From a virus: a stretch of 40,497 bases of DNA. The notes below the pieces were generated by a model, which did not search any database, had not been told where the DNA came from, and worked only from the letters and a program-made list of their open reading frames with translations. This document shows, piece by piece, positions 7,807 through 33,524 of the stretch (its first letter is position 1; each line of letters starts with the position of its first letter). The translations under genes were made by a program, and so were the position numbers. Location of the stretch: positions 1 to 40,497 of the IMG/VR virus record IMGVR_UViG_3300042563_001126; one strand, 5' to 3'.

Positions 7807-8637
7807 ATGGATTATAAAAATACGGTAAGAGAAATCATTAGTGAGATTATTCACGATCAGATGACCCCCACTATGAAGTATTATGCTTTTGACTGGGATG
7901 ACAATCTAATGTATATGCCAACCAAAATATATTTAAAGGACGATAAGGGAAATTCTGTTGGTATGTCTACCGAAGATTTTGCGGAACATAGGACTAAGGT
8001 CGGTAAAAAACCTTTTAAATATGAAGGACATACTATAGTTGATTTTGATGCCGATTCTTTTAAGAACTTCAGAGTTCCTGGTGATAAGTTATTTATAAAA
8101 GATTCTATGACTGCTGAGACAGGTCCTGCTTGGTCTGATTTTGTTGAGGCGGTTAATAACGGGTCAATTTTTGCAATCGTTACAGCAAGGGGACATACCC
8201 CATCGGTGATTAGAAATTCCATTTATAATTTAATAAAACAAAACAAACACGGGATATCTTCAAGTGAGTTAGTTAAAAATCTTAAAAAATATAGAGAATT
8301 ATCAGATGAGGATGATTTATCAGATGATGAACTAATAAATACTTATTTGGATATGTGTAAATATTATCCAGTAACTTTTGGTGAGGGTTCAGCTGCAAAT
8401 CCGGAAGAATTAAAAGTTAGATATATGAAAGAATTTATGACATATGTTAAACAAATGTCTCAAAAATTACAAGAGAAAGCTTTTATGAAGAATAAAATAA
8501 GTAATTATTTTAACCCTTTTATTGGTTTTTCAGATGACGACATAAGAAATGTGAATACAATGAGAAAACATTTTCCAGATAAAGATGAATTAAAGATTTA
8601 TGCTACATCTAAAAAAGGAAAAGAAGAATATGAATAA
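7807..8637 (+). CDS. HAD-superfamily phosphatase-like protein
   Basis: A 276-residue protein; ATG at 7807 is preferred over a TTG at 7783 that overlaps the terminator T-run. HAD motifs are visible: motif I FDWDDNL at 28-34 (nucleophile D29, acid/base D31), motif II VTARG with T126, and motif IV FSDDD at 241-245. K/R candidates for motif III lie between. Such enzymes hydrolyse phosphate esters through a phospho-aspartate; the substrate here cannot be told. A long insert (about residues 140-230) may be a cap. The first 18 residues (NTVREIISEIIHDQ) form a charged amphipathic helix resembling the leaders of two small proteins at 32625 and 32976, so it could be a virion or prohead cargo protein. 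It sits between sheath and tube genes with its own promoter-like motif. Another possibility is a 5' nucleotidase or polynucleotide 3'-phosphatase. Confidence 0.75.
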   Translation: MDYKNTVREIISEIIHDQMTPTMKYYAFDWDDNLMYMPTKIYLKDDKGNSVGMSTEDFAEHRTKVGKKPFKYEGHTIVDFDADSFKNFRVPGDKLFIKDSMTAETGPAWSDFVEAVNNGSIFAIVTARGHTPSVIRNSIYNLIKQNKHGISSSELVKNLKKYRELSDEDDLSDDELINTYLDMCKYYPVTFGEGSAANPEELKVRYMKEFMTYVKQMSQKLQEKAFMKNKISNYFNPFIGFSDDDIRNVNTMRKHFPDKDELKIYATSKKGKEEYE

Positions 8638-24826: not shown

Positions 24827-25495
24827 ATGGGAATTGATGACAAAATAATAAGAGAGATAACGAGATATAACTCTATTAACAAATATATAATGGAACAAGA
24901 CGCTCCACCACCTATTGATCCAGCGGCGGGAGCACCACCTGTAGATCCAGCGGCGGGAGCACCACCTGTAGATCCTGCGGCACCGGCCCCACCACCACCA
25001 CCTGCAGATGGAGCGGCACCGGCCCCTATAGATATTAGTAACGATCCAGATGTTGAGGAAATTGGAGGTGAAGGTGAGGGAGAATCCGAAGAAATTGATA
25101 TTACCGACCTAATTGATAGTCAAAAAACGATGGCTGACAAACAAGAAGAATATTTTACTAATCTTTTTGACCAGATTAAATCTATGGAACAAAAACTTGG
25201 TGAGATGGATAGTCTTGTTACTAAGATTGATGGTTTGGATGCTAAACTTGAAAAATATAGACCTAAAACAGCTCAAGAAAAACTAGAATTAAGGAGTTTG
25301 GATTCAGGTCCTTACAAACAAAGTTTATCCGACTTCTTTGTTGATAAAAAAGATGAAATGGAGGCATCGGGTAAAAACGAATATGTTTTAACTCAAGATG
25401 ATGTTGAGAATTTTAGTCCTAGTGACATTGAAAAATCCTTTAATCAACCAATGGAGGATGAAGATGATGAACTATTAAACAGATATAATTCATAA
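24827..25495 (+). CDS. Pro/Ala-repeat, acidic, coiled-coil protein; unknown function
   Basis: A 222-residue protein. Residues 1-24 (MGIDDKIIREITRYNSINKY) form a charged amphipathic helix. Residues 26-68 are Pro/Ala-rich with a nine-residue unit (DPAAGAPPV) repeated exactly, then an acidic stretch (about 72-95) full of Glu and Gly. A coiled coil follows (about 98-150: DQIKSMEQKLGEMDSLVTKI), and then an acidic C-terminal tail ending EDEDDELLNRYNS. The repeat DNA is GC-rich and stands out from the AT-rich surroundings. Low complexity, acidity and a coiled coil suit a scaffold or prohead-core type protein, and the N-terminal helix recalls the leaders of the HAD-like and 32625/32976 proteins. None of this proves a role. 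It is co-transcribed with the gene before it and closed by a strong terminator. Confidence 0.65.
   Translation: MGIDDKIIREITRYNSINKYIMEQDAPPPIDPAAGAPPVDPAAGAPPVDPAAPAPPPPPADGAAPAPIDISNDPDVEEIGGEGEGESEEIDITDLIDSQKTMADKQEEYFTNLFDQIKSMEQKLGEMDSLVTKIDGLDAKLEKYRPKTAQEKLELRSLDSGPYKQSLSDFFVDKKDEMEASGKNEYVLTQDDVENFSPSDIEKSFNQPMEDEDDELLNRYNS
24917..24970 (+). repeat. 27-bp perfect tandem repeat, two full copies, in the Pro/Ala gene
   Basis: The unit beginning GATCCAGCGGCGGGAGCACC occurs at 24917-24943 and again, identical, at 24944-24970; a diverged third copy follows. It encodes DPAAGAPPV. Exact identity at DNA level points to recent duplication by slippage, so copy number may vary between relatives. 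Confidence 0.9.
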
Positions 25496-30486: not shown

Positions 30487-32346
30487 ATGGACGTTTCACA
30501 AAGAATACTGAGTGACATTACAGTGTATATGAAATACGCTAAATTTGTTCCCGAACTTAATAGACGGGAAACATGGGAAGAATTAGTTACACGAAATAAG
30601 GATATGCATATTAAGAAATACCCACATATTAAAAACGATATTGAGGAAGTATACAAAATGGTGTATGATAAGAAAATTCTTCCATCAATGAGATCCTTAC
30701 AATTTGGGGGTAAGTCGATTGAGATTTCACCAAATAGAATTTATAATTGTGCTTACACGCCAATTGACCACGTAGATTCTTTTTCTGAAACAATGTTCCT
30801 ATTATTAGGTGGAACAGGTGTTGGATTCTCAGTTCAAAAACATCACGTTGAAAAACTACCTGAAATTAAAAGGCCAAACCCAACAAGAACAAGACGTTAC
30901 CTAATTGGGGACTCTATTGAAGGATGGGCAGACTCAATTAAAGTGTTAATGGAATCTTATTTGGGATATAAATCATCAACTCCCATATTTGACTTTTCAG
31001 ATATTAGACAAAAAGGTGCGATGCTTGTAACATCTGGTGGTAAGGCTCCAGGACCTCAACCACTAAAAGATTGTATTCACAACATTACAAAAGTTTTGGA
31101 TTCTAAAAAAGATGGTGAAAGGTTAACACCAATAGAAACTCACGATATTATATGTCATATTGCTGATGCGGTATTAGCGGGCGGAATTCGTAGAGCGGCA
31201 CTCATTAGCTTATTTAGTGCAGATGATGAAGAAATGATTTCTTGTAAATCAGGAAATTGGTGGGAACAAAATCCACAAAGAGGTAGAGCAAATAACTCAG
31301 TAGTACTTCTTCGTCACAAAATAACTAAAGAATTCTTTATGGGTCTTTGGAAACGTATTGAGTTGTCAGGAGCGGGAGAACCGGGAATTTATTTATCAAA
31401 CGATAAAGATTATGGAACTAATCCGTGTTGTGAAATTGCGCTACGACCAAATCAATTTTGTAATTTATGTGAAGTAAATGCGTCAGATATTGAATCACAA
31501 GAAGATCTTAATGAGAGAGTTAAGGGGGCGGCATTTATCGGAACATTACAAGCGGGATATACCGACTTCCATTACTTAAGAGATGTATGGAAAAGAACAA
31601 CCGAGAAAGATGCTCTTATTGGTATCGGAATGACAGGCATTGGGTCTGGAGTTGTTTTAGGGTATGATATGAAAGAGGCCGCTAAGGTAGTGAACGAAGA
31701 AAACGAGAGAGTTGCCGAATTAATTGGTATTAATAAATCCGCAAGATCAACCACCGTTAAACCATCAGGAACCTCATCTTTGGTGTTAGGAACATCTTCT
31801 GGTATTCACGCTTGGCATAATGATTACTACATCAGAAGAATCCGTGTTGGAAAAAACGAGTCTATATACCCTTACTTGTTAAATAACCACCCCGAATTGG
31901 TTGAAGATGAATTTTTTAGACCTCACGATACTGCCGTTATTGGTATACCACAAAAAGCACCAAAAGGGGCTATAATAAGACATGAATCCGTATTCCAAAT
32001 GTTAGAACGTGTTAAGAAGGTAGCTCAAGAATGGGTTAGACCAGGACATAGAACGGGACAAAATACTCATAATGTATCGGCAACAGTTTCAATTAAAGAA
32101 GATGAATGGGATTTAGTTGGTGAATGGATGTGGGATAATCGAAAAGCATATAATGGATTGTCCGTATTACCTTATAATGGGGGAACTTATACTCAAGCAC
32201 CTTTTGAGGATTGTACGGAAGAGGATTTTGAAAGATTGGTTAAAACATTAAAAAATGTTGACCTTACAAAAATAACAGAACTTCAAGATAATACCGATTT
32301 GCGTGGAGAGATTGCTTGTGGGGCTAATGGGTGTGAAATTGCTTAA
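30487..32346 (+). CDS. nrdJ: Class II (adenosylcobalamin-dependent) ribonucleotide reductase, monomeric RTPR-like
   Basis: A 619-residue enzyme that makes deoxynucleotides for phage DNA synthesis. Catalytic residues can be matched to the Lactobacillus RTPR scheme: C88 in YNCAYTP; N312-x-C314-x-E316 in NPCCE, the radical Cys and general base; C325 eleven residues after C314, the spacing of C408 and C419 in RTPR; and a C-terminal pair CGANGC (C611, C616) that relays electrons from thioredoxin. Conserved GGTGVGFSVQKH and VKPSGTSSLVLGTSSGIHA segments support the call. No partner beta subunit or glycyl-radical motif is present, so it is class II. It is shorter than RTPR (739), with less insertion. 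T4 itself uses class I and III. Activity would need host B12. It lies in the replication operon after gp41, and 2 nt before the DUF5522 gene. Confidence 0.93.
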   Translation: MDVSQRILSDITVYMKYAKFVPELNRRETWEELVTRNKDMHIKKYPHIKNDIEEVYKMVYDKKILPSMRSLQFGGKSIEISPNRIYNCAYTPIDHVDSFSETMFLLLGGTGVGFSVQKHHVEKLPEIKRPNPTRTRRYLIGDSIEGWADSIKVLMESYLGYKSSTPIFDFSDIRQKGAMLVTSGGKAPGPQPLKDCIHNITKVLDSKKDGERLTPIETHDIICHIADAVLAGGIRRAALISLFSADDEEMISCKSGNWWEQNPQRGRANNSVVLLRHKITKEFFMGLWKRIELSGAGEPGIYLSNDKDYGTNPCCEIALRPNQFCNLCEVNASDIESQEDLNERVKGAAFIGTLQAGYTDFHYLRDVWKRTTEKDALIGIGMTGIGSGVVLGYDMKEAAKVVNEENERVAELIGINKSARSTTVKPSGTSSLVLGTSSGIHAWHNDYYIRRIRVGKNESIYPYLLNNHPELVEDEFFRPHDTAVIGIPQKAPKGAIIRHESVFQMLERVKKVAQEWVRPGHRTGQNTHNVSATVSIKEDEWDLVGEWMWDNRKAYNGLSVLPYNGGTYTQAPFEDCTEEDFERLVKTLKNVDLTKITELQDNTDLRGEIACGANGCEIA

Positions 32347-32348
32347 TA

Positions 32349-32579
32349 ATGAAAGTAAATTCATCAAACGATTGGATACAACAGTTATATGTTCAGGAGA
32401 TAACAAAAAAGAAGTCTCCTGAACCTGACTTTTATAAAGATGATAATGGTAGATTTGTTATGACAGAATCATACCATATAAAAAGAGGAAGTTGTTGCGG
32501 ATCAAAATGCAAACATTGCCCTTACGAACCTATTTATCAAAAAGGAAGTAAAAATATACAAGAATCACTAAGAAATTAG
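32349..32579 (+). CDS. DUF5522-like cysteine-rich small protein
   Basis: A 76-residue protein. The segment DFYKDDNGRFVMTESYHIKR followed by GSCCGSKCKHCPYEP matches the small family known to me as DUF5522 (pattern NG..V.T..YH..RG.CCG..C.HCPY), which I associate mostly with cellular Bacteroidota. Four Cys (CC, C, C) plus His suggest a metal or Fe-S site; the function is not known. The ATG lies 2 nt after the reductase stop, so the two are translated together, which could mean a redox or metal role linked to the reductase (inference). It ends in a terminator whose stem overlaps the stop codon. It was probably acquired from a host and hints at host taxonomy. Confidence 0.8.
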   Translation: MKVNSSNDWIQQLYVQEITKKKSPEPDFYKDDNGRFVMTESYHIKRGSCCGSKCKHCPYEPIYQKGSKNIQESLRN

Positions 32580-32592: not shown

Positions 32593-32600
32593 TAATGGTA

Positions 32601-32608
32601 TATTTATA
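32601..32608 (+). promoter_or_regulatory. TATTTATA promoter candidate for the two leader-sharing genes
   Basis: TATTTATA in context ATGGTATATTTATATG, directly after the preceding terminator and 16 nt before the ATG at 32625. Confidence 0.55.
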
Positions 32609-32624
32609 TGTAAATTAAAAAATT

Positions 32625-32969
32625 ATGAGAAGAACAATAAGATTAACAGAAAGAGATTTATCAAGATTAGTTAGACGAGCAATCCATGAAATGGATGACC
32701 AATCTGAAATAGGAGGTAACTCCTCAACTAAAAGTGCAATGGACACTGTTAGTGAATTTTTAGAATCAAACGGTGGTGGTTTGGGATCTAGAAATAACGA
32801 CGATATTGAAAAAGATCTTCAGGCTTTAGAATATGCTATTCGAATAGAAAGAAATCAATTAGGTGTTAGCAATCAATCTGCAGGATACAAAAATAGAAGT
32901 AATAATGAAGACGGTGGAATGGGAGATGAACAATTATCCGAAAGATATAATAAAAGAAGAAGAAATTAA
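32625..32969 (+). CDS. Small protein with RLTERDLSRLVRR leader; unknown function
   Basis: A 114-residue, highly charged protein. Residues 5-17 are RLTERDLSRLVRR, followed by AIHEMDDQ; this leader is nearly identical to that of the next gene, while the rest of the two proteins is unrelated. The body is polar and Ser/Gly/Asn-rich, with a helix around IEKDLQALEYAIRIERNQLG and a basic end (NKRRRN). Leaders of this type recur at the N-terminus of otherwise unrelated small phage proteins in gut and marine Bacteroidota phages, in my recollection. By analogy with the short capsid-targeting sequences of T4 internal proteins, it may direct cargo into the prohead. That is inference. It has a TATTTATA element, and the next gene starts 6 nt after its stop. 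Confidence 0.7.
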   Translation: MRRTIRLTERDLSRLVRRAIHEMDDQSEIGGNSSTKSAMDTVSEFLESNGGGLGSRNNDDIEKDLQALEYAIRIERNQLGVSNQSAGYKNRSNNEDGGMGDEQLSERYNKRRRN

Positions 32970-32975
32970 AAAATT

Positions 32976-33524
32976 ATGGGAAAAATTGTAAGATTAACAG
33001 AAAGAGATTTATCTAGACTTGTTAGACGGGTTATTAAAGAAGAAGAAGAACAAGATGAAATTGCTGGTAATGTTGAGTCAATTCTTAACAAACCTAAAGT
33101 TGAAATGAAAATTGAAGATATCTATTCTAATCTAAGTGATGACGAAAAAAGAAAACTTGAATCGTCTTTAAATGATTTGGGTATCAACGCATATACTTCA
33201 CCAAAAGAAGCTCATGCCGCAGTTCAAAATGTAGCTGATAATATTGGTGGTGAAATGAGTGAAGGTGATGAGAATATGGATCCAAAAGAAAAAGTTGCCA
33301 ATATTCTACACGGAATAGGAGAAGCAAATATTGCGGCTTGGGGTGGAGTTCCGGCAGCAATAGTAATTGGCGGTCTTTTAGCTGGAACTGTTGGAGCACC
33401 TATGATTGCGGGATTTGCAATTAGTTGGGGGGTTACCGCTTTATTAATGGGATTAGCAAAACTATTGGCTAAAGATAAATCTAACACTAATGAAAGTTAT
33501 TATAGACGAAATAGAAGATACTAA
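32976..33524 (+). CDS. RLTERDLSRLVRR-leader protein with C-terminal membrane segments
   Basis: A 182-residue protein. Residues 6-18 repeat the leader RLTERDLSRLVRR, followed by an acidic stretch (VIKEEEEQDEI). Residues about 40-95 are a soluble helical domain (SNLSDDEKRKLESSLNDLG; KEAHAAVQNVADNIGG). Residues about 112-165 hold two hydrophobic Gly/Ala-rich helices (WGGVPAAIVIGGLLAGTVGA; AGFAISWGVTALLMGLAKLL) that look membrane-spanning, then a basic tail (YYRRNRRY). If packaged in the head through the leader, it could be ejected and insert into the host membrane; otherwise it could be a membrane protein made late in infection. Both are inference. It is co-transcribed with the upstream leader gene and ends at a strong terminator. 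It is too small and wrongly arranged for a classical holin, though that cannot be excluded. Confidence 0.7.
   Translation: MGKIVRLTERDLSRLVRRVIKEEEEQDEIAGNVESILNKPKVEMKIEDIYSNLSDDEKRKLESSLNDLGINAYTSPKEAHAAVQNVADNIGGEMSEGDENMDPKEKVANILHGIGEANIAAWGGVPAAIVIGGLLAGTVGAPMIAGFAISWGVTALLMGLAKLLAKDKSNTNESYYRRNRRY

Follow-up and report, generated by a model that had tools for sequence, protein, structure and literature searches.

Introduction

The closest described systems are phages that load proteins into their heads by means of N-terminal sequences. In phage T4, the prohead protease gp21 cleaves after L/I-X-E and is blocked by Asp in the place of the Glu (PMC9026906). The first ten residues of the T4 internal protein IPIII are enough for packaging; residues 4 and 7 serve targeting and residues 8 and 10 processing, and Asp at position 10 keeps targeting and blocks processing (PMC9026906). 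The internal proteins of T-even phages are described as highly diverse defence proteins in which the targeting sequence alone is retained (PMC3012670). Related arrangements are found in other phages. SPN3US gp53 and gp54 have diverged bodies behind an N-terminus of 15 identical residues (PMC5694885), and the first 30 residues of P1 DarB suffice for entry of a reporter into the capsid (PMC9024508). Proteins that phages inject have been a long-standing blind spot, as they are small, evolve fast and are without recognisable domains.

Here we investigate a leader shared by two adjacent genes in a 40.5-kb virus fragment from IMG/VR (G000; hereafter the window, meaning the whole stretch of DNA that was analysed). 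The window combines T4-type tail genes with replication genes, and its tail genes include a large sheath-like gene and the gp25 and gp6 baseplate proteins (profile matches). Its closest near-complete relative, G015, is 94% identical in RNase H, 89% in NrdJ and 62% in gp6.

Results

Two adjacent genes with one leader

ORF1 and ORF2 are located between a DUF5522 gene and gp25. The features of the pair are as follows (here and below, a slash marks the predicted cut or its equivalent position):

32599..32608, + strand: promoter-like motif TATATTTATA upstream of ORF1, also found at virion structural genes of the clade
32625..32969, + strand: ORF1, 114 aa; leader, then a small soluble cargo
32625..32690, + strand: ORF1 leader MRRTIRLTERDLSRLVRRAIHE; predicted cut after E22 (IHE/M)
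32976..33524, + strand: ORF2, 182 aa; leader, then a cargo whose C-terminal half is hydrophobic and conserved
32976..33041, + strand: ORF2 leader MGKIVRLTERDLSRLVRRVIKE; predicted cut after E22 (IKE/E)

The two N-termini are near-identical over 22 residues and diverge completely thereafter. Both contain RLTERDLSRLVRR, at residues 6-18 of each protein; the initial annotation had recognised this identical 13-residue block and placed it correctly in ORF2, but had numbered it 5-17 in ORF1. Its observation that the DNA matches as well holds, with AGATTAACAGAAAGAGATTT at the starts of both genes, and so does its statement that the downstream parts are unrelated, as a search with ORF2 reaches ORF1 only across ORF2 residues 2-44. 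The identical DNA stretch is TAAGATTAACAGAAAGAGATTTATC, and AAATTAAAAAATTATG is likewise common to both starts. Within the 40.5-kb window, the full leader occurs in ORF1 and ORF2 only. A chance origin of the identity was rejected, given 13 identical residues in two short proteins and the presence of the leader in hundreds of further contigs.

The neighbouring DUF5522 protein (PF17653, 65 bits; window positions 32349-32579) is small and Cys-rich, and adjoins gp25 in relatives too. On the same side of the pair, the RNR-like protein (30487-32346) is 89% identical to its counterpart in G015, compared to only 50-60% for the neighbouring tail genes, and identity is 94-96% in the UvsX-like and RNase H-like genes. 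High identity in these genes next to diverged tail genes suggests that the replication block recently recombined.

Spread of the leader across phages and cargo families

IMG/VR was queried with ORF1 and ORF2, and then in a second search with 13 leaders. The first search recovered relatives and four contigs (L013-L016) in which other, unrelated ORFs begin with this leader; the second returned at least 600 stretches, at least 444 of them confirmed. The leader consensus has 22 residues, MKKIIRLTESDLTRIVKRVIxE, beginning with Met in 192 of 218 proteins. The fetched loci hold 241 distinct leader proteins in about 185 cargo families, including 151 singletons, as defined by blastp at E<=1e-4 and 40% coverage, a criterion under which distant homologs may count as separate families. 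In an alignment of 125 representative leader proteins, conservation is restricted to columns 1-22. Six near-complete relatives (242-326 kb) have 5-14 leader copies each, both dispersed and in tandem runs of small genes.

These distributions bear on the simplest account of the pair, a tandem duplication followed by divergence of the cargo, in which the leader would have no general role. ORF1 and ORF2 are indeed neighbours with common start-site DNA. Such an event does not explain a leader confirmed in hundreds of IMG/VR stretches, on 185 cargo families and in several dispersed copies per genome, and in relatives the homologs of ORF1 and ORF2 separate from each other. As a complete explanation, tandem duplication is refuted, and we give it almost no chance. 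The initial annotation had called for a search of relatives and had contrasted its reading with a leader confined to this one tandem pair. Run here, the search found the leader to be widespread, and the confinement was rejected on the number of confirmed stretches, copies per genome and cargo families given above.

The home of the leader is a clade of large T4-like phages that are uncultured and abundant. Across the window and its relatives, a T4-type sheath, gp25 and gp6 baseplate proteins, a gp23-type capsid and an S77 protease are all present, and the capsid protein of the relatives matches gp23 proteins from cultured T4-like phages. Judging by the closest cultured relatives, their hosts may be Bacteroidota.

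A search of bacterial and archaeal genomes (85,000 species) found two confirmed leader loci only. A MAG labelled Alphaproteobacteria (UBA3650; L236:443-1578) has a leader gene next to an S77-type protease, so such contigs look viral rather than bacterial. Eight of 151 Bacteroidaceae genomes have leader-like N-termini (RLTESQLxxLIKESVKKVLRE) on small genes (L229, L233, L235, L238-L245), some of which form divergent pairs or lie near transposase-like genes. Cultured phages were covered by tblastn with 20-25-residue leaders against 50,697 phage records, where neither the long leader nor class C had a match and an extended form of the leader had a single weak one; with queries this short, the test has little power. 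On viral contigs, a gapped DNA pattern, probably too strict, found no match. The leader strings were not found in the literature searched, nor was a virion proteome of any leader-bearing phage.

A conserved peptide rather than a conserved DNA element

ORF1 and ORF2 share 25 nt of DNA within the leader and 16 nt round the start codon. This raises the alternative of a short DNA repeat at gene starts, with a role in recombination or regulation (cassette swapping or translation) and a peptide devoid of function. One relative (L006:3529-4074) is without ORF1, and the ORF1 start is joined exactly to the ORF2 cargo inside the leader. This precise fusion speaks for the alternative, in that the repeat can serve as a crossover site; L006 would be a recombinant that arose naturally through the leader, although the join may also be an artefact of assembly. 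It is the residues, however, and not the DNA, that are conserved. The mean amino-acid identity of 217 full leaders is 0.68, and among leader pairs 43% of the identical L/R/T/I/V/S/K residues are encoded by different codons. In the 39 nt encoding the 13 residues common to ORF1 and ORF2, the DNA differs at four sites and all four differences are synonymous. Conservation also stops at an amino-acid pattern. Since synonymous codons vary, we reject a DNA repeat or regulatory element as the main reason for the conservation, and consider a leader without peptide function very unlikely.

The leader ends at a putative protease site

A search profile that omitted columns 20-22 recovered 218 proteins, of which 98% have I, V or L at column 20 and 96% have Glu at column 22, with no Asp there and no preference at column 21; conservation is lost by column 24. 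Holding out columns 18-22 in the six whole genomes gave [IVL] in 53/53 and Glu in 51/53. The CTS of T4 IPIII, read off the T4 record, is MKTYQEFIAE. When the two are anchored on the Glu, T4 Y4, F7, I8 and E10 correspond to four strongly conserved leader residues, V16, V19, I20 and E22, so that the hydrophobic spacing at -6, -3 and -2 from Glu 0 matches the targeting and processing residues mapped in T4. The P1' residue after the leader Glu is Q, N, E or S, compared to the usual Ala of T4.

The Glu could also matter structurally, as the entire conserved unit could be a helix. A rival reading makes the leader a helix that docks onto a target other than the prohead core, such as host RNA polymerase, a membrane, a chaperone or the channel of the tail or baseplate, with the Glu as a feature of the helix instead of a cut site. 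In the structural model of ORF2, itself a poor model, the helix appears to start at an LTE capping motif; two window proteins with short leaders sit amid tail genes, and some wall-enzyme cargo could act in tail penetration. Arguing against another target, position 22 is Glu and never Asp or Gln, two residues past [IVL], in several unrelated leader classes. Moreover, the site matches a protease encoded in the same genomes, whose other substrates have like sites. We judge docking elsewhere unlikely.

The protease belongs to the S77 (gp21) family. Of 31 leader-bearing records, 19 encode a member, among them all 17 in which the major capsid gene is present; 14 control genomes have none. Head genes in G015 follow the order terminase, portal, protease, scaffold, capsid, with the S77 protease at 154799-155509. 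As the window is a 40-kb fragment without the head cluster, we infer its own S77 protease from G015. In the capsid protein, L[IL]NE/[AS] stands immediately ahead of the conserved body in 16/16 genomes, where T4 gp23, with a propeptide of 65 residues (PMC5694885), has the equivalent FLTE/A. [IML]xE/[SNA] is present in most of 14 S77 protease N-termini, and the scaffold protein contains LVKESLxE/Q in 7 of 12 cases, near the leader's own LVKxxIxEQ. The [IVL]xE-type site thus recurs in the expected substrates of a prohead protease. The resemblance of the leader's second half to a piece of scaffold suggests a way in which leader proteins may co-assemble with the core. A head-cluster protein that adjoins the terminase in G011 (147553-148467; L130) contains a leader-like segment in its interior, KLTESQINILHSRLISE/A.

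The same resemblance could be read differently. The leader might target the prohead while its proteins are assembly (core) proteins that are consumed or expelled, not ejected effectors. T4 gp22, gp67 and gp68 have like sites and are mostly degraded, and IPIII aids T4 head assembly (PMC9026906); the scaffold's LVKESLxEQ, in common with the leader, would fit such a role. Counter to this, leader cargo shows extreme diversity and turnover and includes enzyme domains, and the different proteins are too many for core structure alone. This reading, too, we consider improbable.

Upstream motif

Of 59 leader genes, 36 (61%) have TATTTAT at a distance of 7-45 nt upstream, and so do 53 of 93 virion genes (57%), including all six scaffold genes and all six protease genes. 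The motif precedes only 5/27 replication genes (19%) and 14.7% of the remaining ORFs, and its background frequency in random stretches is 1.5%. The similar frequencies suggest that leader genes group with virion genes. In leader classes C and D the motif is upstream of just 8-12%.

Looser and alternative leaders

Two further proteins of the window begin with looser versions:

7807..7845, + strand: short leader MDYKNTVREIISE of a HAD-like protein (ORF 7807-8637); predicted cut after E13; T4-register match VREIISE
24827..24895, + strand: leader-like N-terminus, ...INKYIME/Q, of a Pro/Ala-rich protein (ORF 24827-25495)

In HAD-like orthologs, [ILVF]xE stands directly ahead of the HAD body in 5/6 and the remaining N-terminus is variable. 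The Pro/Ala orthologs have an IN.YI.EQ-type sequence in 6/6 (one INTYVLNEQ, one ITNYITEQ), followed by Pro/Ala-rich sequence. The proposal that these two proteins carry looser leaders is therefore borne out, in that [ILVF]xE or IN.Y[IV].EQ is kept in orthologs despite N-terminal drift.

Of 1709 non-leader ORFs, 245 have the register h..hh.E starting in residues 1-15, compared to 76 and 98 in two downstream intervals; its Asp version was flat (81/80/69). The raw density of [ILV]xE over all ORFs has a modest N-terminal excess, 0.033 versus about 0.019 per position, and the full register is the more telling indicator.

Other classes occur on unrelated cargo: MRELIRHILKE (short), MNLQENIxRIKxMMGxxxE and MKIIITESQYxxLxE. 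The first forms tandem runs of up to nine genes. In the MNLQENIxRIKxMMG class, [ILV]xE lies within nine residues past the anchor in 11/13 and further on in 1-3/13; the corresponding figures for the MKIIITESQY class are 34/52 and 4-12/52. Classes B-D were selected by regular expressions, and as that of class B includes the Glu, its N-terminal bias is the sole independent evidence for that class. Members of one cargo family (..YMFFSNLEQM..) bear the long leader in G011 and L016; those in G015, G012, G021 and G025 bear a short one, and both leaders terminate in [IL]xE.

In G015 (L115 and other loci; 243190-249855 and 255468-258772), these three classes recur on unrelated ORFs, several of them as extended tandem arrays of small genes that overlap. 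A cultured relative, Flavobacterium phage immuto (MW353175; L223-L225), has a different modular N-terminus, MENFDLKKFLVE/NKLT-type; four or more unrelated ORFs start with it (1803, 103806, 117631, 118632), and one of them is annotated as a cobalamin adenosyltransferase.

Cargo

Pfam domains are few among the 125 representative leader proteins. Those of cell-wall type comprise peptidoglycan-binding domains (4), an L,D-transpeptidase (L024:8266-9351), VanY and a Tae4-like amidase; GNAT acetyltransferases are also present. In L094:10001-10558, the long leader is fused to a protein of the S-AdoMet lyase family, with a score above the curated cut-off. S-AdoMet lyases are early anti-restriction enzymes of T3-type phages. 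We regard this protein as a candidate pre-packaged anti-restriction enzyme, and entry functions are plausible for both it and the cell-wall enzymes.

A relative has a homolog of ORF1 (L061:10977-11279, corresponding to G021 234152-234457) that is one of several consecutive leader genes. The ORF2 family has eight members, all of which retain the leader, and the conserved hydrophobic C-terminal half of the ORF2 cargo suggests that it is likely membrane-active. The AlphaFold model of ORF2 was too poor (pLDDT 40) for use in a fold search.

Discussion

We conclude that the leader is probably a propeptide for capsid targeting. By its means, diverse cargo would be loaded into the head and delivered to the host, and the prohead protease would remove it. 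Specifically, a leader gene would be expressed late, together with the head genes. Its amphipathic N-terminal helix (LTExDLxRIVKRVI) would dock onto the prohead scaffold core, and the cargo behind it would be enclosed as the shell forms. The S77 (gp21-type) prohead protease would then cleave after the terminal [IVL]-x-E, freeing the cargo within the head. Finally, the cargo may be ejected along with the DNA and act in the host ahead of phage gene expression. The analogy with T4 capsid targeting drawn in the initial annotation is supported by the [IVL]xE end, the gp21-type protease, the matching sites in capsid, protease and scaffold, and the upstream motif of head genes. Counted against the propeptide are its lack of homology to the T4 CTS beyond the register, its length of 22 residues, a P1' other than the usual Ala of T4, a Glu that could matter structurally, the scarcity of the upstream motif in leader classes C and D, and leader-like N-termini on a few Bacteroidaceae chromosome genes.

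More tentatively, we suggest an extension that falls somewhat short of probable. Jumbo T4-like phages may possess a set of interchangeable head-loading tags (long, short and at least two more classes) by which tens of proteins, around a tenth of the proteome, are delivered, and cargo may be swapped by leader-mediated recombination, as in L006. If so, this would be the largest arsenal of injected proteins inferred from sequence alone.

On the main reading, the leader would be a practical tag for listing proteins that these phages may inject into bacteria. If it is equivalent to the T4 tags, a question for proteomics can be approached by searching sequences: candidates for injected effectors already number in the hundreds, and for each the exact mature N-terminus is predicted. 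Phages of flavobacteria or other Bacteroidota would also gain a packaging tag that is short and can be tested, and protein loading into heads would seem to go far beyond the few examples from T4.

Comparison with known systems

Looking across known systems, the T4 CTS of IPI, IPII, IPIII and Alt, processed by gp21, are similar in several respects. Like the leader, they are N-terminal, stand on otherwise unrelated small proteins, have an [LI]xE end and place hydrophobic residues at -6, -3 and -2 from the Glu; the leader genomes in turn have a gp21-type S77 protease, T4-type head genes and a virion-type upstream motif. The two have no alignable sequence, and as the register alone is in common, we say that the leader works like the T4 CTS family and not that it is a member. 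The leader has 22 residues compared to 10-19 in T4, and each genome carries 5-14 copies of one leader plus other classes, compared to about four in T4. It also differs in P1' (Q/N/E/S), in having cargo families that are almost entirely undescribed and in that its cleavage is predicted. The P1 DarB signal is likewise an N-terminal packaging signal, but belongs to one protein family and is not a tag reused across cargoes. The giant phages phiKZ and SPN3US resemble the present clade in having many inner-head proteins with N-terminal propeptides and a gp21 relative that cleaves after x-x-E (PMC5694885). They are a separate phage lineage, however, and their propeptides are mostly longer than 100 residues, whereas here one short tag extends across about 185 families in T4-like phages.
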